Assembly (NCBI GenBank): GCA_022820125.1
Contig: JAJEGA010000125.1
Span: 1 to 64,000 of the forward strand
From: Anaerolineae bacterium
Lineage (GTDB): Bacteria > Chloroflexota > Anaerolineae > Aggregatilineales > Phototrophicaceae
Direction of reading: 5' to 3'
DNA: 64,000 nucleotides
The translations under genes and the position numbers were made by a program. The notes under the pieces are model-generated. The model was given only the letters and a program-made list of their open reading frames with translations, was not told the DNA's origin and did no database searches. Shown in pieces: positions 14,487 through 27,157 of the stretch (position 1 is its first letter; each line of letters opens with the position of its first letter).

Positions 14487-15725
14487 GTGGCTTCCTTTTG
14501 GTTCATTTCCGCGCCGCTCTACAGCCACACCGATTGGGGTGGCTTCCTCAAGACGGCGCAGGCGCTGCAGAATAATGGCCACGACATCCTCTGGCTCAGC
14601 GAAGCCTCCTTGGAGCGGGCGCTGACCCAGAGCGGGCTGCCCTTCCGCGCCATTCGACAGACGGGCTGGCTCTGGCCCCCGCCGCCACCGCCTGATTTGA
14701 GTCAAATCCCGCCGCAAGCTGCCGTCAAGCTGCGCTACAAGCGGGCGCTGGACACCTGGCTGAGCGAGGCATTGGTGGCTGACGCGGTCGAGGCCTTGCT
14801 GGATTTGGAGGACGAAATCGGCGCGCCGGACGCGATTGTGTCCGATCCTTTTCTCAGCGCGTCAGCGATTGCGGCGGACATTCTGGATATACCGCTGATC
14901 ATCTGCGGCTGGCCCGCGCAGGCGACGCTCGACGAGCAGAGCCTGTTCCCGGTGCAGCGCGATTTGAGCAGCGACAGCCAGCAGCGGATTCAGCGATTAT
15001 GCGATCGCTTCGGCATCGAAGGCAGGAACTTCTCAAAAGGCACGGCGCCCTCAATCATCAGTGAATCGCTGCATGTGACCTATTTCACCCCGGATTGGTA
15101 TCAGTCCGAGTTGTCGACAATGCTGCCGCAGACGCAATTTGTCGGCGGTCGCGCCGAGGCGCCGGCCGATTCGCCGCCGCAATGGCTCTTGGATATCCCG
15201 CCGGAGAAGCCGCTTGGCTTGGTCACTTTGGGCACGAGCTTCACCGGCGATCTGGGCTTTTACAGCTGGGCGGCGCAGGCGGTCGCAAGCGCTGGCATGA
15301 TTCCAATTGTGACGATCGGCTGGAATCCGATCACGGCGGAGCAGAAAGCCGAACTGAAACGGGCGCTGCCGGCGGGCACAAGGCTGCTCAATTGGGCGCC
15401 TTATGATCATGTGCTGCCGCGCTGCCGGATCACGATTCATCACGGCGGCATGGGCACGACGCACTGCGCAGTCATACATGGCCTGCCGCAGATTGTGGCG
15501 CCGCACGCGGCTGATCAGCGGCTGCAAGGGCGGCGCGTCGCCGAAGCGAAAGTGGGTTTGCATTTGACGGCGCATGACGTGCGGCAGGGGCAGCTGCGCG
15601 AGGGTGTGCATGCGATTATGAAGGCGGAGTGGGTGCGCGAGAATGCGCGGCGTCTGGCGGCGGAGATGGCGGCGCTGGGCGGGGTCGCGCGGGCGGGGGA
15701 GTTGGTGGCGGGGGTTTTGGGTTAG
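14487..15725 (+). CDS. GT1-family glycosyltransferase (UGT/MGT-like)
   Basis: The 412-residue protein has the GT-B fold of GT1 enzymes, which move a sugar from a nucleotide donor to a small-molecule or lipid acceptor. The N-terminal half carries IVSDPFLSASAIAADILDIP. The C-terminal half has LVTLGTSFTGDLGFY, LLNWAPYDHVLPRC and the donor-binding loop ITIHHGGMGTTHCAVIHGLP with PHAADQRLQGRRVAE. The GTG start at 14487 follows GGGAGA. The acceptor is unknown. Its stop overlaps the end of the convergent rloB gene by four bases. Confidence 0.82.
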   Translation: MASFWFISAPLYSHTDWGGFLKTAQALQNNGHDILWLSEASLERALTQSGLPFRAIRQTGWLWPPPPPPDLSQIPPQAAVKLRYKRALDTWLSEALVADAVEALLDLEDEIGAPDAIVSDPFLSASAIAADILDIPLIICGWPAQATLDEQSLFPVQRDLSSDSQQRIQRLCDRFGIEGRNFSKGTAPSIISESLHVTYFTPDWYQSELSTMLPQTQFVGGRAEAPADSPPQWLLDIPPEKPLGLVTLGTSFTGDLGFYSWAAQAVASAGMIPIVTIGWNPITAEQKAELKRALPAGTRLLNWAPYDHVLPRCRITIHHGGMGTTHCAVIHGLPQIVAPHAADQRLQGRRVAEAKVGLHLTAHDVRQGQLREGVHAIMKAEWVRENARRLAAEMAALGGVARAGELVAGVLG

Positions 15726-16348
15726 GTGGATGAAAAACGGATTGACTTAATGAGTTTATACACACGGGTGCCAAGGCTTCGGAGCGGACGGTTAGCGCTT
15801 GTTCTGTCAAGCGTCTTGGCTTTGGCAATCGCATTGCTGGTTTCTGTTACATCAAAGTAGCGCTTGTTTGTAGCTTTTCCTTTCTTGTATGTTGGATCTT
15901 CGCTCTTGAGAACGTCAGTAACGGGTTTACATTTGCCACCTGATGTCCTGCCTGGAAGCCCGCGCAGTTCGTTCAGTTGCTTAAAATGCAACAATAGCCA
16001 AAGTTCGAAACACGGATAGCTTTCAGCCAAACTATACTTTTTCTGGCGTACTTGCTTTGCAGCGCTTTCAAGATCCCAGTGATCTTTATCAATTACAGCC
16101 CAATATTCATCTTCATCATTTGGGTCGTATTTCTTTGCGATTCTTTCTTTAGCTTTGTCAAGCGCCTTGATAACGCTATCTGGATCAGAATTGTCACCAC
16201 TCTGTTTTGCGAAGGAAACGTTGCTGAATCTGTCCTTGCCGATAAATCTCCTGATGTAATCCCTTTCAGTAGGACCTTCAGTAGCAACAACGATGCGCTT
16301 GTTGACTTCCCTCTGTCTTGAACCTCGTTTACCCTTGTTTCGAGCCAT
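15722..16348 (-). CDS. rloB: RloB/AbiLii-like protein (TOPRIM-like)
   Basis: The 208-residue protein matches the RloB family. An N-terminal VVATEGPTERDYIRRF has the conserved TEG-x-TE glutamates, and a TOPRIM-like acidic motif AVIDKDHWD follows. Further family features are SYPCFELWLLLHF and GGKCKP. RloB proteins occur beside AAA ATPases at restriction-modification and abortive-infection loci (rloA/rloB; AbiLi/AbiLii), where a nuclease-like activity is presumed. It starts six bases after the ATPase gene and is certainly cotranscribed with it. Codon use and lower G+C set the pair apart from their neighbours. The molecular target is not known. Confidence 0.8.
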   Translation of the reverse strand: MARNKGKRGSRQREVNKRIVVATEGPTERDYIRRFIGKDRFSNVSFAKQSGDNSDPDSVIKALDKAKERIAKKYDPNDEDEYWAVIDKDHWDLESAAKQVRQKKYSLAESYPCFELWLLLHFKQLNELRGLPGRTSGGKCKPVTDVLKSEDPTYKKGKATNKRYFDVTETSNAIAKAKTLDRTSANRPLRSLGTRVYKLIKSIRFSST

Positions 16349-16353
16349 GTGTA

Positions 16354-17730
16354 TTATTCAGTCCCAACTTCGTGAAGGATAGATAGTATTGGTATCGCTC
16401 CGAATCGACCGCCCAAGTATCCCTTTTCGATATTCATGTTGTCTGGGAGCTTGAACTCTTCAAGTGAGAACAAAGTCGATGAGTTTTTTCGGTCCTTTTC
16501 GATGAACCAAATCTCGTCGCGTCTCAACAAGTCAAAGTCGAGGAGACCGGTATCATGAGTCGTTACAATCAATTGGCTACGACCCTTGATGCTGCTGGTG
16601 AGGAACTGATCCAAGACGTTGTAAGTTAAGTGCGTATGCAAACTTCTATCAAGTTCGTCTATCACGAAAACATGATCCGATTGACCACTGTGCAACCGAA
16701 ATAGCGCCGGCAAGAGCGCAAGCAATCGCCGAGTGCCGTCCGATTCCGCCCTCAGGTCAAAGGGAACGGGTCGATCGTCGTTAGGACGATGGTGCAGAGT
16801 AACAAGCTTGTAGGCGGCGAATTTGCTTTCCGCGTCCACTGTAAGGTATTGTTCGTTGCCGTATCGTCCAAATATAGCTCTCTGATCGGTATCTTTGGGG
16901 ATTTGTTCAACGACTTCTTTTATATTCTTCGCGAAGTCTTCGGGCAAGTCAGATTCCGCGTTGAAATCAATCTGTTGAAGAGTAAACCCATCTATCCCTA
17001 GGTCGAAAACGTCGATTAGCTCCGTTAGCCGGCGCTCCAAATCATCATCTTTCATCAATCCAAGTCCAATGCCTTGAGCGGGAATCGAATCTGGAAAGAC
17101 AGGAAAAAGGGTCTGATCAAACCAATCGTAAATGTGTGCAAGAAATGGAATTCTCTGCTCGCCAAGTTCCAGTTCAAGTCGTTTGTATTGGGTCAAGAAC
17201 AATACGCGCGGATCACAGGACTCGGGTAAGAAATCCATGGGATCGTCATCATTTGTAACGAGTACGGGAATCTTGCCAAACTCTATGTTCGTCTTTCCGT
17301 CGACAGTTGTCTTCCGCTCAAAGATCATGTGCTCGGTATCAGGAAGTATCTCGTAAAGAGATTCCTTGTTTACTCGCTGCGAATCTACGGAAAAGAAATA
17401 TTGGAAACATTGCCCCATACCGCATTGGATCTCAAACAGGAATTCTGAGGGCTTCGCAGCACTCTCGCTGTCAAGTAGAAACGGAGTTAGTTCGTGGTAT
17501 TCTGTCGGCAATGATCCAGTCCTTATGAAGTTTTGAGCGAAGCTCATCGCCTTTATCAAATTGGTCTTTCCCGACGCGTTCGGTCCAAATATCACGCCCG
17601 TCTTCAATATGCGCATGTCCCGAACCTTATGAACGTGATCCGGATGCTCGTCAGATTCCCCTGCGAGCATCGAAAACTCAACATCGTCTTTAAAAGACAG
17701 GAAGTTCTCTACACAAAATCGAATCAACAT
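16354..17730 (-). CDS. rloA: AAA/ABC-type ATPase of an AbiL/RloAB-like defence pair
   Basis: The 458-residue protein is a P-loop ATPase of the AAA_15/AAA_21 type. It starts MLIRFCVENFLSFKDD, with Walker A GPNASGKT at 49-56. Walker B is VFVIDELDRSLH and the switch histidine is in IVTTHDTGLLD. The signature-like region is ESDGTRRLLALLP. These ATPases pair with RloB-type effectors in abortive infection. The start is set at 17730 because a perfect GGAGGTGA lies five bases before that ATG. A longer frame reaching 17988 overlaps the divergent gene and has no such site. A dyad-symmetric element lies in its leader. Confidence 0.8.
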   Translation of the reverse strand: MLIRFCVENFLSFKDDVEFSMLAGESDEHPDHVHKVRDMRILKTGVIFGPNASGKTNLIKAMSFAQNFIRTGSLPTEYHELTPFLLDSESAAKPSEFLFEIQCGMGQCFQYFFSVDSQRVNKESLYEILPDTEHMIFERKTTVDGKTNIEFGKIPVLVTNDDDPMDFLPESCDPRVLFLTQYKRLELELGEQRIPFLAHIYDWFDQTLFPVFPDSIPAQGIGLGLMKDDDLERRLTELIDVFDLGIDGFTLQQIDFNAESDLPEDFAKNIKEVVEQIPKDTDQRAIFGRYGNEQYLTVDAESKFAAYKLVTLHHRPNDDRPVPFDLRAESDGTRRLLALLPALFRLHSGQSDHVFVIDELDRSLHTHLTYNVLDQFLTSSIKGRSQLIVTTHDTGLLDFDLLRRDEIWFIEKDRKNSSTLFSLEEFKLPDNMNIEKGYLGGRFGAIPILSILHEVGTE

Positions 17731-17765
17731 GATTGTCACCTCCGTTCTGAAAGTGTGAAGCATCA

Positions 17766-17811
17766 TGTTACAACTATTGTCCGCGAATATGTGCGGAATT
17801 TCAATGTAACA
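17766..17811. promoter_or_regulatory. Nested dyad upstream of rloA
   Basis: TGTTACA (17766-17772) and TGTAACA (17805-17811) form an outer inverted repeat. CCGC (17781-17784) and GCGG (17793-17796) form an inner one, and both pairs share the same centre of symmetry. The element lies 36 bases upstream of the rloA start and 77 bases before the divergent gene at 17888. It could be an operator for a dimeric regulator, or a leader hairpin. Confidence 0.4.
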
Positions 17812-17887
17812 CAAGATAGCAGTATTCCGAACGTTCACGCTACAATACCCCCCACTGACCACCCACCTTACAGAAAGCGCTCTCAAC

Positions 17888-20800
17888 ATGAACCTCCCCC
17901 TCGACAACATCGGACGCTGGCGCTGCATCGGACCCTTCCGCGGCGGGCGCGTCGTCACCGTCGCCGGCGACCCCCGCGATATCGGCACATTCTACTTCGG
18001 CGCCTGCGCAGGCGGCGTCTGGAAGACCGACGATGCCGGGCAATACTGGCGCAACATCTCCGACGGTTACTTCAATACGGCGTCGGTCGGCGCGCTGGCA
18101 GTCTCCGAAGCCGATCCCAATGTCATCTACGCCGGCACGGGCGAGGCGACGATTCGCATTGACGTCTCGCATGGCGATGGCGTCTATAAGTCGGAGGACG
18201 CCGGGCGCAGTTGGAAGCATATCGGCTTGGGCGACACGCGCCATATCGGCAAGATTCGCATCCATCCGCAGGATCCGGATACGGTCTTTGTGGCGGCGCT
18301 GGGGCATGCCTTCGGTCGCAATCAGCAGCGCGGCGTCTTCCGCTCCACCGATGGCGGCGAGAACTGGGAGCGCGTTCTCTTCGTCAGCGACAAGGTGGGC
18401 GCGGTTGACTTGAGCATCGACGTTAATAATCCGCGCATCATCTACGCGACGATCTGGGAAGCCTATCGCAACTTCCACATGATCAGCAGCGGCGGCGAAG
18501 ACAGCGGCATCTGGCGCTCGATGGATGGGGGCGACACTTGGCAGAATATCTCCGGCAAGCAGGGTTTGCCCGGCGGCATCTTGGGCAAGGTTGGCATCGC
18601 GGCGTCGCCGGCGCAAGCGGGGCGCGTTTATGCCCTCGTTGAGCATGAAGCGGGCGGGATGTATCGCTCGGATGATTATGGCGATAGTTGGAAGTTCGTC
18701 GCGCGCAACAACGATATAATCTCGCGCGCCTGGTATTACATGCATTTGACGCCCGATCCACAAGATCCGGATACGGTATACGTCAACAACCTGCGCTTCT
18801 GGAAGTCGGTTGATGGCGGTAAGACCTATTCCGCGATTGGCACGCCGCATGGCGACAATCACGATCTTTGGATTGACCCGCAGAATCCGAAGCGCATGGT
18901 GCAAGGCAACGATGGCGGCGCCTGCGTTTCGCTCAATGGCGGCGCCACCTGGTCGAGCATCTTCAACCAGCCGACGGCGCAGTTTTATCACGTGGCGGCT
19001 GACAATCGCGAGCCCTATTTCGTCTACGGGACGCAGCAGGACAACAGCAGCATCGCCGTCCCCAGCCGCAACGAGAAATCGTCGCTGATGTGGATGGACG
19101 GCTTCATCGCCGGCTCGGGCGAAAGCGGCTACATCGCGGTCAAACCCGATGATGACGACATCATATTCGTCGGCGCGATCGGCAGCTCGCCCGGCGGCGG
19201 CAATTGCCTCCAGCGCTATGATCATCGCAGCAAGCAGCTTCGTTTGGTGACGACCTGGCCCGAGATGACAGCGGGCGAGGCGGCGGCTGATCTCGAATAT
19301 CGTTTCGCCTGGACCTATCCCATTGTGTTCTCGCCACACGATCCCAATACGCTCTACATCGGCGGGAATCGCATCATGAAATCCACGGACGAGGGGCATA
19401 GTTGGCAGCCGATCAGCCCGGACTTGACCCGCGCCGACCCGTCCACGCTGCAAGTCACCGGCGGACCGATCAATCGCGATGGCGCCGGCGCCGAAGTTTA
19501 CGCGACGGTCTTCGCGCTGGCTGTATCGCCCCATCAGCCGGGCTTGATTTGGGCTGGCTCGGACGATGGCTTGGCGCATATCAGCAGGGATAATGGCGAG
19601 ACCTGGGAGAATATTACGCCGGCAGAGCTGCCCGAATGGTCCATGATCAGCGCGCTGGAGCTATCGCCGCATGACGCGGCGACCTGTTATCTGGCGGCGA
19701 CCCGATACAAGCTGGACGACTACGCGCCCTATCTTTACAAGACGGACGATTACGGGCGGACCTGGCGGCGCATCAACAAGGGCATTCGCGCTGACGATTT
19801 CACGCGCGTCATTCGCTGTGACCCGGCGCGGCGCGGTCTCCTTTATGCCGGCACGGAAACGGGCGTCTACATTTCCTTTGACGACGGCATGAGCTGGCAG
19901 CGCTTCCAACTGAATCTGCCGGTGACGCCGGTCCACGATTTGCTGGTGAAGAATGGCGACCTTGTGGCAGCGACTCACGGCCGCTCGTTCTGGATTCTTG
20001 ATGACTTGTCTCGCCTGCGGCAGTTGACCGGCGATTTGGAGGGCAAGCGCGCGATCCTGCTGCAGCCGCGCGACACGCAGCGTATTCTGGAGAGCATCGA
20101 CGCGCGGCGCCTGGTCGATCAACCGGGCAAGACTTACCAGAGTTCGACTGGCGTTATGGCTGCTTATACGCACAGGGTCACGCCGGAAAATGAGGTCGAG
20201 CGCGAGTTTCTGGATTCGGGCGAGAACCTGCCGCGCGGTGTGCTGATAAGTTATTTCCTGGCGGAGGCGCCAGCCGACAAAATAAGGTTGAGCGTCGCCG
20301 ACGCCGACGGCAATCTTCTGCGCGAATTTATAAGCATGGACGATGCTGAACGGCAAAAGCAGAAGGAGAAGCCGGACCGATCAATCACCTATATCACTGC
20401 CAACGACGGCTGGAATCGCTTCGTCTGGGATATGCGCCTGCCGCTGTCACCGGCGATCAAAGGGAAGGATCCGCAGTTTGAACGGATGCCGGGCCCAACG
20501 GTTACGCCGGGGACCTATCAGATGACTTTGCAGGTTGGCGCTGAAGAACATACGCAGTCATTCTGTTTGATCAAGGACGCCACATCGTCAGCCTCCGCCG
20601 ACGATTCGCAGCAGCAGTTTGACCTTTTGCTGGCGATATACCAGCTATACTCGGATGCAACAGAGACCGTCAACGATATGCGGCGCCAGCGCGGGCAATT
20701 GAAGCGTTTGGTTGAACGCTTGGCGGCGAATGACGAACATAGCGAGATTGTCGATCAGGCGAGCGCGCTTCGCGAGCTCATTCTTTTAATTGAAAAAGGT

Positions 20801-21055
20801 ATTTTCATTCCCGAATTGCGCGAGGGCTGGGCGGGGCGGCTGAACCAGGGCACGGACCCTTTGCGGCGGCTCAGCGCCTTGCCCTCGGTGGTGGCTTTGG
20901 GCGAGTTCCCGCCGACCACGCAAGCCTGCGCGGTCTACGAAAAACTTGCCGCGATCATTGGCGGACGGATGCGCGAGTTCGCTGCCTTGAGTCAGGGCGA
21001 AGTCGCTGCCTTCAATCGAATGCTGGCGGAAAAGGGCGTCGCGTTGATCGGGTAA
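17888..21055 (+). CDS. VPS10/BNR-repeat (Asp-box) beta-propeller protein
   Basis: The 1055-residue protein is a large beta-propeller of the kind annotated as glycosyl hydrolase or VPS10 (sortilin) domain protein. I count about ten Asp-box motifs, among them SEDAGRSW, STDGGENW, SMDGGDTW, SDDYGDSW, STDEGHSW, SRDNGETW and SFDDGMSW. A C-terminal part after about residue 700 contains a beta-rich region (FVWDMRLPLSP) and helical tail segments. I see no signal peptide: the protein begins MNLPLDNIGRWRCIGPFRGGR. Enzymatic activity cannot be inferred, because Asp boxes are structural. It is transcribed divergently from rloA. Confidence 0.75.
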   Translation: MNLPLDNIGRWRCIGPFRGGRVVTVAGDPRDIGTFYFGACAGGVWKTDDAGQYWRNISDGYFNTASVGALAVSEADPNVIYAGTGEATIRIDVSHGDGVYKSEDAGRSWKHIGLGDTRHIGKIRIHPQDPDTVFVAALGHAFGRNQQRGVFRSTDGGENWERVLFVSDKVGAVDLSIDVNNPRIIYATIWEAYRNFHMISSGGEDSGIWRSMDGGDTWQNISGKQGLPGGILGKVGIAASPAQAGRVYALVEHEAGGMYRSDDYGDSWKFVARNNDIISRAWYYMHLTPDPQDPDTVYVNNLRFWKSVDGGKTYSAIGTPHGDNHDLWIDPQNPKRMVQGNDGGACVSLNGGATWSSIFNQPTAQFYHVAADNREPYFVYGTQQDNSSIAVPSRNEKSSLMWMDGFIAGSGESGYIAVKPDDDDIIFVGAIGSSPGGGNCLQRYDHRSKQLRLVTTWPEMTAGEAAADLEYRFAWTYPIVFSPHDPNTLYIGGNRIMKSTDEGHSWQPISPDLTRADPSTLQVTGGPINRDGAGAEVYATVFALAVSPHQPGLIWAGSDDGLAHISRDNGETWENITPAELPEWSMISALELSPHDAATCYLAATRYKLDDYAPYLYKTDDYGRTWRRINKGIRADDFTRVIRCDPARRGLLYAGTETGVYISFDDGMSWQRFQLNLPVTPVHDLLVKNGDLVAATHGRSFWILDDLSRLRQLTGDLEGKRAILLQPRDTQRILESIDARRLVDQPGKTYQSSTGVMAAYTHRVTPENEVEREFLDSGENLPRGVLISYFLAEAPADKIRLSVADADGNLLREFISMDDAERQKQKEKPDRSITYITANDGWNRFVWDMRLPLSPAIKGKDPQFERMPGPTVTPGTYQMTLQVGAEEHTQSFCLIKDATSSASADDSQQQFDLLLAIYQLYSDATETVNDMRRQRGQLKRLVERLAANDEHSEIVDQASALRELILLIEKGIFIPELREGWAGRLNQGTDPLRRLSALPSVVALGEFPPTTQACAVYEKLAAIIGGRMREFAALSQGEVAAFNRMLAEKGVALIG

Positions 21056-21065
21056 TCGCACGAAA

Positions 21066-21086
21066 CTGTCTCTATTTGGGAGACAG
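21066..21086. terminator. Hairpin between convergent genes
   Basis: CTGTCTC (21066-21072) and GAGACAG (21080-21086) pair perfectly around a seven-base loop. The hairpin lies 10 bases after the stop of the BNR gene and before the end of the convergent PBP-like gene. There is no T-run on either side, so it is only a candidate terminator. Confidence 0.35.
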
Positions 21087-21159
21087 CGCCAGCGCGTCGA
21101 TGATGCTAGCGGCCGGCGGCGTCGGATTTGCCGATTGCCTTCGGCGGAAGAATGCGCCC

Positions 21160-22572
21160 TTAGGACTGCGCCAATGTCCGAATCAGCGCTTGGCCGACTG
21201 AGAGCAGTCTTGAGAGATCGTCATTGTCTTCCAGAATGATCGCGAATGCGTAGGACTGTTGATCAGCGCCCGCGCTAAAGCCATTTAGCCAGATCTGGGA
21301 TGCTTCGCCCGATTGCGAGCGGGCGACTTGCGCGCCGGTGTCGCCCTTGATGGTAGCGACAGGCAAAATGGACCAGGCTTGGCGCATGACGCCCCGCAGT
21401 TCCTTAGCCACCTCAGCGCTGATGACTGGCGTCGACGGGGAAAGACCGTTCGTGTTTTGCCACTGCTGCTTGCCGGGCAGTTTCGTGGCGGCGTGAATGG
21501 TTGGCATTCTGATGCTGCCGTCGGTGGCCACCGCCGCCATGATAGCCGCCATGTGCAAGGGCGTCGTGGTCAGATTGCCTTGGCCAAGCGCGGCGCGTTC
21601 GCCCAGAGCGCCGTTCTCAAGCGCTTCGGCTGAAAGCGCGCTGGGCAATTCTATCGGTTCCGGCTGCGGGAAACCGTCCAGCGCGACCGGATTGTGAAAC
21701 ATAAACTGTCTTGAGATCGCGTTCAGGTTCATCGCAGGCTCGGCGAGAAAATACGTATGAAAGGGGGCCGGGCAACCATAGATGTAGGCGCCGATCAGCG
21801 TGAGCTCGGTCGCGTCCGGCCTGATGGCGCACTCAATCGAAAAGCCATCTTCGAATTCAACCGCTGCGGCCGATTGCGGGTAGAGCTTGGACTGGTCAGA
21901 GCGCGACCGAAGCGCCTCCGCCAGCAAGACGGTATACATCGTGCCGCCAAGTTGATAATGGCTTTGCAGCGCGCGGTTGAAGAAGGGTTGTCCCTCAGCG
22001 GCCACCAATTCATCCCAATCGGCATCAAGGTTATTGGGGTCGAAGCTGGGCTGGCTGAACAGCGCTGCCACTTCACCGTTCCAGGCGTTTAGAACGACGG
22101 CGGCGCCTCGAAAGTCGCCCCAAGCGGATGCCAGCGCATCCTGTAATTCAGCGTCTAACGCAAGCCTGATATCGGACCCGATCTGAGGGCTTCGCAGCAG
22201 ATTGCGTTTGAAATAGTCGCCCAGCGATCTTACTTCGCGCGAGCCGGACAGTAGCTCGTCGAAGGCGGCTTCGGCGCCGCTGACCCCATAGCGCAGGCTA
22301 TAATAACCGACCGCGCTAAAGGCCGAGGAACGCGGATAACGGCGCTGCAAAACGCCCGCCTCGGCAACAGTATCGGCGAGCAGCCGCCCCTCGCGGTCGT
22401 AGATGCTTCCGCGTTGAATCGAAGCCAGCGCTTCTATCCGCCGGGGATTGTCGTCGCGCAGGAGCAGCGAGTCCCGTCCAGCGAAAGCCCAATAAGCGGC
22501 CGACAAGCCAACTGCCAGCATTGACGCGAGCGAGCCGGCAAGCAGGTGTCGGATACCGCGACTGAACTGCAC
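21160..22572 (-). CDS. PbpA-like transpeptidase-fold protein lacking catalytic motifs
   Basis: The 470-residue protein has the layout of a class B penicillin-binding protein of the PbpA type: a membrane anchor near residues 9-30, a short dimerisation region (RGSIYDREGRLLADT) and a transpeptidase domain (AVVLNAWNGEVAALFSQPSFDPN). The catalytic motifs are gone. Where PGSTFK is expected it has LGGTMY, so Ser and Lys are Gly210 and Tyr213. The SxN region reads YGCPAPF. The KTG region reads KGDTGAQ (409-415), with Asp411 at the KTG lysine position. The usual GQG motif is kept (GQGNLTTTPLHMAA). The GTG start directly follows the SEDS gene stop, with GGGAG upstream. It is probably a pseudoenzyme that partners the SEDS protein. 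Confidence 0.75.
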   Translation of the reverse strand: MQFSRGIRHLLAGSLASMLAVGLSAAYWAFAGRDSLLLRDDNPRRIEALASIQRGSIYDREGRLLADTVAEAGVLQRRYPRSSAFSAVGYYSLRYGVSGAEAAFDELLSGSREVRSLGDYFKRNLLRSPQIGSDIRLALDAELQDALASAWGDFRGAAVVLNAWNGEVAALFSQPSFDPNNLDADWDELVAAEGQPFFNRALQSHYQLGGTMYTVLLAEALRSRSDQSKLYPQSAAAVEFEDGFSIECAIRPDATELTLIGAYIYGCPAPFHTYFLAEPAMNLNAISRQFMFHNPVALDGFPQPEPIELPSALSAEALENGALGERAALGQGNLTTTPLHMAAIMAAVATDGSIRMPTIHAATKLPGKQQWQNTNGLSPSTPVISAEVAKELRGVMRQAWSILPVATIKGDTGAQVARSQSGEASQIWLNGFSAGADQQSYAFAIILEDNDDLSRLLSVGQALIRTLAQS

Positions 22573-23880
22573 CTAGCGCGCTCCCGAACGCGGCCTGGGC
22601 GCAGCCGAGGCGGAAAGGCGCAGCAAGAGCCCGATCATTATGAAGCAGACGAGAAGAGAACTGCCGCCATAACTGATGAACGGCAGTGTTACTCCAGTCA
22701 AGGGCAGGAGCTTCAGGACGCCGGCCATGATCATGAGAGCTTGCGTGATCAGCATCAGGGTCAATCCCGCGGCCAGCAGCTTGTGAAAGGCGCGGCCGCT
22801 ATGCCTTTGCGCGATAGACAGGCCACGATGGGCGAGGACGGCAAAACTGCTCAAAACGCCGACCACGCCCAGCAGCCCCCATTCTTCCGCCAGCGCGGCG
22901 AAGACGAAGTCGGAATGCGCCACCGGGATATAAAAGGGCGAGCCGAGGCCCGCGCCGGTTCCAAATATGCCGCCTGCGCTGAAAGCCATCAGGCTCTGTA
23001 CAATTTGATAGGCGCGTCCGTCGGCTTCAGGCCAGGGGTCCAGCCAAATATCGACGCGCAGCTTCACTACGTCAAACAAGTGATAGGCGACGGCGGCGGC
23101 GAGGATGATTAGCAGGGCGCCGCCAAAGAGAATGCGCAGGTCGCAAGTTGTTAGGTATAGCAGTAAGAGGAACACTATGAAGAAGAGCATGGCGGCGCCC
23201 AGGTCGCGCTGCCAGATGAGTATCACCAGCGAGAGCAGCCACATCGAGAGAATCGGACCCGCCAGGCGCGGCAAATAAGGGTGCCTATTGGCGGCGTCGC
23301 CCGGGTTCGCGCCGCTGGCCGCGCTCTGCTCGCCGAGGTAACTCGCCATAAAAGCCACCAGAATGACCTTCATGATTTCCGATGGTTGAAAATAAACGGC
23401 GCCGACATTCAGCCAAAGCCGCGGCGCGAAGTCGAAGCCGGAAGGATTGCGGCCGAAGACGATGGTGGCGAGCAGCAGCAGAAGCGCGGCCGCTAGAACC
23501 AGGTAGCGATAGACGCGCAGCCAGCGCAATAGCTGGGGAAAGAGGGCGGCGAAGAGCATAGCCGCGACGCTGATCACGAGCCAGAGCGCCTGCCGATCGG
23601 CGAATGGCGGCGCCAGTCTTTCAATGGCGACGAGCCCCCAGCCGCTCAAGAAGATCGCCAAAGGGAAGAGCAGCCGGTCGCGCGCCGGGAGGTAGCGATT
23701 CAAGAGTGTCGCGCCAGCCAGCGCGCAGGCTGTCCATATCGCCAACCCGGGCCAAACATTGGGTCCGGCGGGCCGCGTTAAGGCAATGGCAGCCATGCCG
23801 GCAAACACCGACATGCCAGCGAAAACCAGCAAGAGGCGATGGTGGCGCTCGCTCGCGGACGCAGGCGCCGGCGGTCTCAT
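22573..23880 (-). CDS. SEDS peptidoglycan polymerase (FtsW/RodA/SpoVE family)
   Basis: The 435-residue polytopic protein is a SEDS glycosyltransferase that polymerises lipid II into glycan strands. Family landmarks are LNVGAVYFQPSEIMKV, IWQRDLGAAMLFF, the catalytic-region motif VAHSDFVFAALAEEWG, and LPLTGVTLPFISYGGSSL near the end. Whether it acts in division (FtsW) or elongation (RodA) cannot be decided. It lies between mtnP and the PBP-like gene in a cluster with FHA proteins, as found in Actinobacteria and Chloroflexota. Confidence 0.9.
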   Translation of the reverse strand: MRPPAPASASERHHRLLLVFAGMSVFAGMAAIALTRPAGPNVWPGLAIWTACALAGATLLNRYLPARDRLLFPLAIFLSGWGLVAIERLAPPFADRQALWLVISVAAMLFAALFPQLLRWLRVYRYLVLAAALLLLLATIVFGRNPSGFDFAPRLWLNVGAVYFQPSEIMKVILVAFMASYLGEQSAASGANPGDAANRHPYLPRLAGPILSMWLLSLVILIWQRDLGAAMLFFIVFLLLLYLTTCDLRILFGGALLIILAAAVAYHLFDVVKLRVDIWLDPWPEADGRAYQIVQSLMAFSAGGIFGTGAGLGSPFYIPVAHSDFVFAALAEEWGLLGVVGVLSSFAVLAHRGLSIAQRHSGRAFHKLLAAGLTLMLITQALMIMAGVLKLLPLTGVTLPFISYGGSSLLVCFIMIGLLLRLSASAAPRPRSGAR

Positions 23881-23892
23881 CGTCCCCCCGCT

Positions 23893-24771
23893 TTAATCGG
23901 CATCAAGCCCCAGCACGCGCGCCAGGATCGGGCGCAATCTCTCGATCACCTGTGGGTCCATTGCGTCGGGCGATGTCATGACGGCGGTTTCGAGGGCGGT
24001 ATGCGCTGGCGTTTCCTGGTCTTCATCCAGCTGTGTGATCGCTTCGACCAGAGCCTGCTGCACCGTCGCTATGTTTTTGACCATGGTTTGAACCACCATG
24101 TCCGAGGTGACTGCTTCCTCCGCCTCATGCCAGCTGTCATAATCGGTGACGTGCGCCAGCGATGCGTAATCGATTTCGGCTTCGCGCGCCAGGAAGGCTT
24201 CGGGCGCGGCGGTCATGCCGATAAGATCGCAGCCCCAGTTGCGGAACAGATGGCTTTCGGCGCGGGTGGCGAAACGCGGTCCGTCTTCGATCAAGAAAAC
24301 GCCGCGGCGATGCGCCGTCCCGCCGACTGCTTCGACCGCGTCGGCGATGAGCTGACGCAGATAATCGCTCATCGGGTCGGCGACCGATACGTGGGCGACT
24401 ACGCCATCCTCAAAGAAAGATCGCGCGCGTGTGTGAATGGTGTAATCGACGATTTGATCGGGCGTGATGATATGGCCCGGCGCGTAATCTTCGCGCAGCG
24501 AGCCGACAGCGTTGACGGCGATGATGAAGCGGACGCCCAGCGACTTCAGCGCGTAGATGTTGGCGCGATAGGGCAGCGTCGATGGCGCAAGCGCGTGCCC
24601 CTCGCCATGGCGCGGCAGAAAGGCGACGCGCTTCCCGCCCAGACTGCCGACGCGGATCGCGCCGCTTGGCGCGCCAAAAGGCGTATCAAGCGCAAGCGTT
24701 TCAACATCGGAAATCGCCGCCATGTTATAGAGACCCGAGCCGCCGATTACTGCCGTCTTAATAGATTCCAT
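23893..24771 (-). CDS. mtnP: 5'-methylthioadenosine phosphorylase
   Basis: The 292-residue protein belongs to the nucleoside phosphorylase family PNP/MTAP. Motifs include AVIGGSGLYNM, LPRHGEGH (phosphate site), LKSLGVRFIIAVNAVGSL, EDGPRFATRAES and CDLIGMTAAPEAFLAREAEIDYASL. It should split methylthioadenosine into adenine and 5-methylthioribose-1-phosphate, the substrate of MtnA encoded at 43421-44464. The gene is wedged between fhaB and the SEDS gene and reads with them. That placement is likely opportunistic rather than functional. Confidence 0.9.
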   Translation of the reverse strand: MESIKTAVIGGSGLYNMAAISDVETLALDTPFGAPSGAIRVGSLGGKRVAFLPRHGEGHALAPSTLPYRANIYALKSLGVRFIIAVNAVGSLREDYAPGHIITPDQIVDYTIHTRARSFFEDGVVAHVSVADPMSDYLRQLIADAVEAVGGTAHRRGVFLIEDGPRFATRAESHLFRNWGCDLIGMTAAPEAFLAREAEIDYASLAHVTDYDSWHEAEEAVTSDMVVQTMVKNIATVQQALVEAITQLDEDQETPAHTALETAVMTSPDAMDPQVIERLRPILARVLGLDAD

Positions 24772-24839
24772 CGTCTCCTCCTCTGCGCGTTGGCTTCGCG
24801 CCTTCGGTTACAGCGGCGCTGAATTGCCGAGAATGCCAT

Positions 24840-25295
24840 TCACGGAATCTCTTCCGTTCCCAGCGACAGCCGGTAGCTGAATCTGCCGATACCGATCACA
24901 TCGCCGTCCGCCAAAATAGCGCGCTGCTGGATGGCAGCGTCGTTGAGGCGGGTGCCGTTTCGGCTGCGCCGATCTTCCAGCCACCACTGCCCATCCTCCA
25001 GGACGATCCACGCATGTTCGCCGCTGGCGAAGTCGTCTTCGACCACCACCGTGTTGCTGGCGGACCGCCCGAGCGTCGTAATCGCGCGCAGTGGGTAGCG
25101 TTCGCCTGCGCCATCTGGCTGGCTTGAACCGCGCGTTTGTCTTGTCAGGTAGCCACGCGCCGCCCGCGCCATTGCCAATTGACGCTCTGACTGCCGCATG
25201 CTGCGCCAGACGATGGCGAAGAGCAGCGCCAGAAATCCAATAAGGCTCAAACCCGCGAGCAGACGCAATATGAATACGGCGACTTCGACGCTCAA
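24840..25295 (-). CDS. Membrane-anchored FHA-domain protein (FhaB-like)
   Basis: The 151-residue protein has one N-terminal membrane helix (about residues 4-30) and a C-terminal FHA domain. Its phosphothreonine-binding motifs are TLGRSASNTVVV, the DDFASGEHAWI loop and RRSRNGTRLND. FhaB/FipA proteins read threonine phosphorylation at the division and wall-synthesis machinery. It lies 9 bases after the FhaA-like gene and upstream of the SEDS and PBP-like genes, which supports that role. No kinase gene is in the window. Confidence 0.85.
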   Translation of the reverse strand: MSVEVAVFILRLLAGLSLIGFLALLFAIVWRSMRQSERQLAMARAARGYLTRQTRGSSQPDGAGERYPLRAITTLGRSASNTVVVEDDFASGEHAWIVLEDGQWWLEDRRSRNGTRLNDAAIQQRAILADGDVIGIGRFSYRLSLGTEEIP

Positions 25296-25304
25296 GGCAT
25301 TGAC

Positions 25305-25691
25305 CTAGCTTGGCGGCAGGACCCGCGTCGTACCGTCACCATCGCCGCTCCCGTTGTCGTCGGCGCGTACCGATACGGTGGGCGGGGCCAGAAGCTGGTA
25401 TCCGGATTCCTCGCTCAGATTGGCGATGAGCGCAGCCAAACGCAGCGGCAATTCGGAAAATTGCGCTGCGAGGCTGGCGGCTCTATTCGGGTGAAGATAT
25501 ATGGCGTAAGCATCCGGCGCGGCGGGCTTGCTCTCGCGCGCATGAGCCGGGCGGGCTTGGTCTTCCATCGCCCGCAGGAGCAAAAGAGCGATATCGCGCG
25601 CGTTGATCGAGAGGCGGAACAAGCGGGCAAACGCGCCTTCAAGCAGGTCCTGGATTTGACGTTCCAGCGTGTCGATTGAATGAGCGCCCAT
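25305..25691 (-). CDS. DUF3662 (FhaA N-terminal) domain protein
   Basis: The 128-residue protein matches the N-terminal DUF3662 region of FhaA (LERQIQDLLEGAFARLFRLSI, RDIALLLLRAMEDQ, AYAIYLHP). Actinobacterial FhaA carries a C-terminal FHA domain, which is absent here. The protein ends after a Gly/Asp-rich stretch and TTRVLPPS. The FHA function may be supplied by the next gene. The ATG is only six bases from a TATAAT box, which suggests a leaderless transcript. Confidence 0.75.
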   Translation of the reverse strand: MGAHSIDTLERQIQDLLEGAFARLFRLSINARDIALLLLRAMEDQARPAHARESKPAAPDAYAIYLHPNRAASLAAQFSELPLRLAALIANLSEESGYQLLAPPTVSVRADDNGSGDGDGTTRVLPPS

Positions 25692-25697
25692 AACTGC

Positions 25698-25725
25698 ATT
25701 ATAGACGAGACCTGCTAAGGGGCAA
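25698..25725 (-). promoter_or_regulatory. Promoter of the FHA/SEDS cluster
   Basis: Reading the minus strand, TTGCCC (25720-25725) is followed after 16 bases by a consensus TATAAT (25698-25703). The start codon of the DUF3662 gene begins six bases further on, so transcription would start at or next to the ATG. Confidence 0.55.
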
Positions 25726-25825
25726 ACGGGAAGGTATCGCTGTTGATCCCGTCCGGACTCAGCCTGGCACAGGTTATGGACGCTCGCTCGGCAGCCGCTG
25801 GCCTCAGCTTGTTGGCGTCTCGCGA

Positions 25826-27157
25826 TCAGCTGCGCGGGATATAATCAAGCCAGGCGTCGAATATCTCGAACTGGCTGCTGTTGGTTTCGCGCAGGGATTC
25901 TCTCAATTGCTCAAGTTCCTGCCGCTTGGCGCGTTCGATTTGCGATTTCGTTTCGGCGCCGCTGCGCTCTTCTTTGCTGCGCACCTGCAGAATGTGATAG
26001 CCAAACTCGCTTTTGACGGGACCGACGAGCGCGCCGATCTCCGCGCTTTCAATCGCCGCGCGGAATTCGCGCACGTAGTTGCCAACGTAGGATTCTCCCA
26101 ATTCGCCGCCGCGGGCGCCGCTGCCGGGGTCGGTCGATATGGCGCGCGCCAGCGCCGCGAAAGTCTCGCCATCATTTAAAGCTTGCAGGGCTTGCGCGGC
26201 TGTCTGCTCATCCTCGACCAGAATGTGCCGGACATCAGCATATAGCAGCGCGCCATCATCGGGAACGAGGGCGTCGGCGAGCGAGGCTTCCAGCGCATTG
26301 CGCTCAAAGAAGCGATCAACAGTTTCGGCGGCGACGCCGGCGCGGTCGAGATAGGCGCGGTAATCTTCTTCATTCTGCTTGAAGTTCTCGCGCGCTTCGT
26401 CGGCGCTTAGCGTCGGCTCGACGACCGTCGGCTGTGGCGTGACTTCTGGTTCAGCGGTCACTTCTGTAGCGATTGCCGCGGGGTCGGGCGTCTCCGTGGG
26501 CGCTGGCGTATTCGTCGGCGTGGGCGAAACAAAGGGCGTCGGCGTGACAGTCGGCTCAGGCGTTGCAGTCGGTTCGACGCCAATAAGCGCGACTTCCGTG
26601 GGGTCAAAGCCGAAGAATTCTTCGACAGCTTGGCGCACGGCGGCTTCGTCTACCCGGATATTACGCGAAGCGGCTTCGGCGGCGAGCAGCCTGTCGTCAA
26701 CCATATCGTTGATCACGCGCAGCCCGAGCTGGTCTGGCACATTCGCCTCGCTGAGCCAAGTTTTGTAGGGCTCTTGCTGCGCCAGCTGTTGCATATCGAA
26801 GCCCGAGGACTGCATCTGATTAAGCTGCAGCAGGAGTCGATTTCGTTCCAACTGATACTCCTGCCGGAACTCCCGAACCGTGATATTTACGCCATTGACT
26901 GTTGCGACAGTCTGGTTGGGGACAATGAATTGTTCGATGGCGAAGGGAATCGCAATCAACAATGCGAGCACAGCGACCAGGGCGATGACGCCACGAATGA
27001 CCCATTTCTGCAATTGCTCTTCTTTTTCGGCGCGGCTGACGTAGGACGAATCGGCTTGGCTTTGTGGGTTGCCTTCACCGCCTTGGCCTGCAGCTGCCGC
27101 TTGCGTTCGGCGCCGCCTCCGTTTGGGCGCGCCAGTCGTTTGAGCCTTCTTCGACAT
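25826..27157 (-). CDS. Membrane-anchored PpiC/SurA-type peptidyl-prolyl isomerase
   Basis: The 443-residue protein begins with a basic tail (PKRRRRRTQAA), then a membrane helix near residues 52-74, so most of it is outside the cytoplasm. A SurA-like N-terminal domain (TVATVNGVNITVREFRQEY) and a Pro/Thr-rich linker (TATPEPTVTPTPFVSPTPTN) follow. A parvulin domain comes next (DVRHILVEDEQTAAQALQAL, STDPGSGARGGELGE, FGYHILQVRSKEE). It should help fold exported proteins. It follows the ribosomal protein genes in the same direction. Confidence 0.87.
   Translation of the reverse strand: MSKKAQTTGAPKRRRRRTQAAAAGQGGEGNPQSQADSSYVSRAEKEEQLQKWVIRGVIALVAVLALLIAIPFAIEQFIVPNQTVATVNGVNITVREFRQEYQLERNRLLLQLNQMQSSGFDMQQLAQQEPYKTWLSEANVPDQLGLRVINDMVDDRLLAAEAASRNIRVDEAAVRQAVEEFFGFDPTEVALIGVEPTATPEPTVTPTPFVSPTPTNTPAPTETPDPAAIATEVTAEPEVTPQPTVVEPTLSADEARENFKQNEEDYRAYLDRAGVAAETVDRFFERNALEASLADALVPDDGALLYADVRHILVEDEQTAAQALQALNDGETFAALARAISTDPGSGARGGELGESYVGNYVREFRAAIESAEIGALVGPVKSEFGYHILQVRSKEERSGAETKSQIERAKRQELEQLRESLRETNSSQFEIFDAWLDYIPRS

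Follow-up and report, generated by a model that had tools for sequence, protein, structure and literature searches.

Does a class B penicillin-binding protein (bPBP) that has lost its catalytic residues still serve the SEDS glycosyltransferase next to it? The question is raised by two adjoining genes in the window, i.e. the whole stretch of 64,000 nucleotides of Anaerolineae DNA that was analysed. Glycan polymerisation by SEDS proteins requires a bPBP partner, and the role of the latter, transpeptidation versus SEDS activation, has been argued from mutants of a few model bacteria. The features of the locus are:

21160-22572, minus strand: pseudo-class-B PBP (PbpA-type), 470 amino acids, catalytic residues lost
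22480-22563, minus strand: N-terminal helix, residues 4-31, predicted by AlphaFold2, a probable membrane anchor
22198-22458, minus strand: pedestal/PBP_dimer_2 region, residues 39-125, conserved to the same extent as in intact relatives
21220-22107, minus strand: transpeptidase-fold domain (PF00905), residues 156-451, from Pfam and predicted fold
21934-21951, minus strand: SxxK site, residues 208-213, LGGTMY (Ser210 replaced by Gly, Lys213 by Tyr)
21760-21777, minus strand: SxN site, residues 266-271, GCPAPF, a conserved replacement motif
21322-21342, minus strand: KTG region, residues 411-417, DTGAQVA, homologous residue Gln415
22573-23880, minus strand: cognate SEDS glycosyltransferase, 435 amino acids, catalytic Asp324 kept, adjoining the PBP
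23893-24771, minus strand: PNP/MTA phosphorylase-family protein, conserved neighbour
24840-25295, minus strand: FhaB-like FHA-domain protein, conserved neighbour
25305-25691, minus strand: FhaA N-terminal-domain protein, conserved neighbour

The open reading frame of the pseudo-PBP starts with GTG. Pfam Transpeptidase matched with E 1.5e-17 and PBP_dimer_2 with E 1.8e-9; with the single N-terminal helix the protein has the domain architecture by which a class B PBP is recognized. In pairwise and profile searches M. tuberculosis PbpA and related PBPs were among the nearest solved structures by sequence. An AlphaFold2 model, computed with an alignment of 45 rows, had a pLDDT of 88 and a pTM of 0.87, and the top PDB matches of this model in Foldseek were PbpA-type PBPs (4mnr, TM 0.74/0.83; 3un7, TM 0.73/0.77). 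By domain content, profile and predicted fold the protein is a PbpA-type class B PBP. The catalytic motifs were aligned with M. tuberculosis PbpA (3lo7, 3un7) as a reference. Its PGSTFK pairs with LGGTMY and its SCN with GCP (residues 266-268). This agrees with the original prediction that Gly210 and Tyr213 occupy the SxxK positions and that SxN is lost. The prediction had further placed Asp411 at the KTG lysine. Here the absence of a lysine stood, yet the position did not: pairwise alignment alone gives Asp411, whereas the family profile and an alignment of 112 loci give Gln415; neither has a lysine. Because the fold is kept while SxxK, SxN and KTG are lost, the protein appears to be a class B PBP homologue which, judged by its motifs, would have no transpeptidase activity. 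Beside the SxN site are Cys248 (21829-21831) and Cys267 (21772-21774), a pair shared by the pseudo forms and some intact relatives, which probably forms a structural disulfide.

A survey of this locus across Chloroflexota, as had been proposed with the prediction, demonstrated that the loss is shared by 84 genomes from 15 families, all in Anaerolineae, the class of the window. The search set, from which the loci were fetched, consisted of 400 genomes of the phylum and 61 relatives; the alignment comprised 84 pseudo and 28 motif-intact loci. A lysine at position 213 was present in 28/28 intact loci and in 0/84 Anaerolineae pseudo loci, therefore the motif loss is not due to chance. Ser210 was still there in 14 of the pseudo loci, each time without the lysine, and in none of the 84 pseudo forms does the active-site helix begin with a Ser-x-x-Lys. 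Asn268 of SxN was likewise retained in none of the 84, Ser266 in two, and the KTG lysine column contained a lysine in two. All 28 intact loci possessed serine and lysine of SxxK as well as serine and asparagine of SxN. The SxN site of the pseudo forms is replaced by a conserved xCPxPF; 18 loci (fused or short forms, mostly of family groups f2 and f3) have also dropped this region and kept the N-terminal half. Twenty-six of the 28 intact loci aligned belong to other Chloroflexota classes and two to Anaerolineae (G088, G128); further genomes of the latter class gave weak matches only. Since G088 and G128 are intact, the loss is clade-wide, short of class-universal.

The conserved replacement motif raised the possibility of a non-canonical enzyme in which a remodelled site (Cys267-Pro, Tyr or Gln213) carries out a different reaction, e.g. 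a thiol-based acyl transfer. Cys267 is indeed invariant wherever the SxN region exists (66/66). However, M. tuberculosis PbpA and some of the intact relatives also have the Cys248/Cys267 pair, beside SxN; it looks ancestral, and a structural disulfide is therefore likelier than a new nucleophile. Furthermore, residues 210, 213 and 415 are free to vary among pseudo forms, and the short forms are entirely devoid of the cysteine. We consider such an enzyme very improbable.

The SEDS partner has kept its catalytic residue. As claimed in the prediction, its catalytic-region motif AHSDFVFAALAEEWG is intact and includes Asp324, which corresponds by motif to D262 of E. coli RodA. The catalytic aspartate was present in 86/86 SEDS partners of pseudo-PBPs, a set with a few duplicate loci. 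In the window the TAG stop codon of the SEDS gene is immediately followed by the GTG of the PBP in the same frame, and in 30 of 84 genomes both proteins are encoded by a single ORF; PF01098, PBP_dimer_2 and PF00905 were all found in the six fused ORFs scanned. On the SEDS tree the fusion state takes five changes, at least four of them forced by well-supported branches. Pseudo and intact forms are separated by one split (SH-aLRT 90) in this quick tree, which does not give the direction of change. Among 34 genomes of the genus, 29 carried the SEDS gene together with the pseudo-PBP gene; the other five (G405, G413, G419, G426, G429) had neither. As both genes are missing in these five, the module is dispensable and not universally essential. 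Co-occurrence and fusion thus provide the genetic pairing by which a SEDS-bPBP synthase is recognized.

Is the pseudo-PBP simply a redundant bPBP drifting toward loss? Selection was examined by dN/dS (NG86, close pairs). Values were 0.15-0.33 for the pedestal, 0.30-0.45 for the transpeptidase domain and 0.09-0.28 for the SEDS protein. Mean pairwise identity of residues 321-470 was 45% among intact forms and 31% among pseudo forms; that of residues 39-125 did not fall (39% intact, 44% pseudo), and residues 126-230 were conserved at 44%. The pseudo-PBP is under purifying selection, more so outside the catalytic domain than within it; constraint is relaxed in the catalytic part and not in the pedestal region, thought to touch the SEDS protein. 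The higher dN/dS of the transpeptidase domain and the absence of the pair from five genus genomes would fit a decaying gene. Ratios well below 1, an ORF that is open in 84 genomes from 15 families, the recurrent fusions to an intact SEDS and the joint loss of both genes speak against it, and we give decay hardly any credence.

If the protein is non-catalytic, crosslinks would come from elsewhere. The host genome (95% complete) encodes three SEDS proteins and seven PF00905 proteins. Of its three transglycosylase-domain proteins two also have PF00905, i.e. they are class A PBPs; in addition there are four YkuD and five Mur-ligase-domain proteins. MrdA and two orphan class B PBPs have intact sites, and all 30 genomes of the genus that were read have GSVWK, SCD and GKTGT in MrdA (contig C50). 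With an intact MrdA and other transpeptidases, the capacity for crosslinking in trans is present. This is in line with the proposal made beforehand that another enzyme does the crosslinking, for which MrdA, the two orphan class B PBPs, the two class A PBPs and the four YkuD proteins are the candidates.

Taken together, the pseudo-PBP is likely a dedicated activating subunit of the third SEDS polymerase, with crosslinking carried out by other enzymes. The prediction of a pure activator or scaffold gains support, at the level of sequence, from the loss in 84 genomes, the SEDS aspartate kept in all 86 partners, co-presence and co-absence, and repeated fusion. The protein would have been kept as activator and scaffold because a SEDS protein polymerises glycan only with a bPBP partner. 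Given that the catalytic residues are gone and the protein is retained and often fused, its only remaining task is most likely to turn on the polymerase. An fhaA-fhaB-SEDS-pbpA locus with a regular PbpA-type bPBP may have been the starting point. On the branch toward most Anaerolineae this bPBP would have lost its acyl-enzyme machinery, with the membrane helix, the pedestal and the overall fold being kept. The pseudo-PBP would then have been retained as SEDS activator and scaffold, both genes would have been fused repeatedly into one chain, and the crosslinks in glycan made by the third SEDS would have been left to MrdA, class A PBPs, orphan bPBPs and LD-transpeptidases. We infer that the protein activates its SEDS partner, does not bind penicillin and relies on crosslinking in trans.

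Studies in model bacteria make such a role plausible. Activation of the SEDS protein by the bPBP has been proposed for SEDS-bPBP synthases (PMC6207328, PMC8078798, PMC10449877). The transmembrane helix of PBP2 alone stimulates RodA (PMC10449877), and an engineered RodA-PBP2 fusion polymerised glycan when PBP2 was blocked by mecillinam, which required RodA D262 (PMC6207328). B. subtilis can divide with a transpeptidase-dead PBP2B, and dead S. aureus PBP1 likewise supports division (PMC8078798); SpoVD activity is to some extent dispensable (PMC12713402). Such dead mutants show that what is required can be the presence of the bPBP and not its activity as a transpeptidase (PMC8078798, PMC12713402).

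Three observations count against the activator reading: the five genus genomes without the module, the fold largely retained in most lineages, and the conserved CPxPF. As a bare activator has no obvious need for the fold and for CPxPF, another role of the domain, e.g. binding or dimerisation, is possible. The transpeptidase-fold domain could be kept mainly for binding or sensing, with stem peptide, nascent glycan or another envelope protein as its ligand, and would then position or regulate the SEDS protein instead of activating it. The intact predicted fold, the new CPxPF with invariant Cys248 and Cys267, and the conservation of residues 126-230 point in this direction. Yet the 18 loci without the SxN/CPxPF region retain the SEDS and the pedestal, and constraint is weakest in the C-terminal part. 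We consider a binding or sensing module unlikely and prefer the activating subunit.

A second case of a bPBP with a damaged active site was found in the same genome. In FtsI of the dcw cluster (G000:C33:43043-44878; L001, L205, L287:7041-8789; order ftsI-mraY-murD-ftsW-murG-murC, names from sequence and cluster order) GSIMQ replaces GSxxK. In the genus the SxxK lysine of FtsI was gone in 32 of 33 genomes read and kept in G432 alone (G419, of the 34, is outside this count). SxN was partly lost (SLD, SLH) and KTG was mostly KPG. The lysine was also gone in two more lineages of the family, G512 with G523, and G468; it is present in locus L281 (GSVFK). IQ-TREE gave three independent losses of the FtsI lysine within the family. 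As most lysine-less FtsI have kept the serine, a reduced rather than a zero activity is possible. Two of the three SEDS proteins, FtsW included, may pair with non-catalytic bPBPs; glycan synthesis at the septum and by the third system would then proceed independently of cognate transpeptidation, and the fusions would be self-contained, beta-lactam-indifferent polymerases. We regard the case for this as evenly balanced.

Was the transpeptidase lost because antibiotics then cannot trap the SEDS pair? Selection for beta-lactam indifference concerns the reason for the loss and does not conflict with the activator mechanism. Acylation chemistry is lost in two bPBPs of the genus, and the bin names of many relatives suggest metagenome-assembled genomes from sponges, a source we deduce from the names. 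The sites of MrdA and of the two orphan bPBPs are intact, however, and of all explanations this one seems to us the most remote.

How does the locus compare with known systems? The closest is RodA-PbpA (PBP2b) of actinobacteria in the fhaA-fhaB-pstP-rodA-pbpA-pknAB locus, which resembles the window in its domain types (PBP_dimer_2 plus transpeptidase, SEDS) and shares FhaA and FhaB as neighbours. Actinobacterial PbpA is acylated by penicillin (3upo), whereas the window protein is without any catalytic motif. The actinobacterial locus further has a kinase and a phosphatase; the window locus has none adjacent, and its relatives have fusions. With RodA-PBP2 and FtsW-FtsI the window pair shares the SEDS catalytic aspartate and, in the bPBP, a single N-terminal helix and the pedestal; unlike the window pair, the known members have a working transpeptidase. 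The catalytically dead bPBPs (B. subtilis PBP2B, S. aureus PBP1, C. difficile SpoVD S311A) are engineered point mutants, whereas in Anaerolineae the loss has become fixed in a large part of the class, accompanied by further remodelling. We found no description of natural pseudo-bPBPs or natural SEDS-bPBP fusions in the open-licence literature, which is no proof of novelty. The locus constitutes a natural experiment: most of the class sampled has given up the transpeptidase chemistry of this protein yet retains the protein as a partner, and fusion has occurred repeatedly; three further losses concern the catalytic lysine of FtsI. For work on SEDS activation, the fused chains, being transpeptidase-free, are attractive single-polypeptide systems. 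Also, annotation as a PBP alone is insufficient to infer a beta-lactam target.

The order SurA/PPIase-FhaA-FHA-MTA phosphorylase-SEDS-PBP was kept in most named loci. Among the ORFs identified at 14487-27157 of the window there was no PP2C phosphatase and no Ser/Thr kinase. The locus is adjoined by a large Sortilin/Vps10-type BNR-repeat protein (17888-21055, plus strand) with 70-89% identity in genus relatives. An RloB-domain protein and an AAA ATPase (15722-17988, minus strand) matched the PADLOC AbiLii/AbiLi models and are a candidate anti-phage defence pair.
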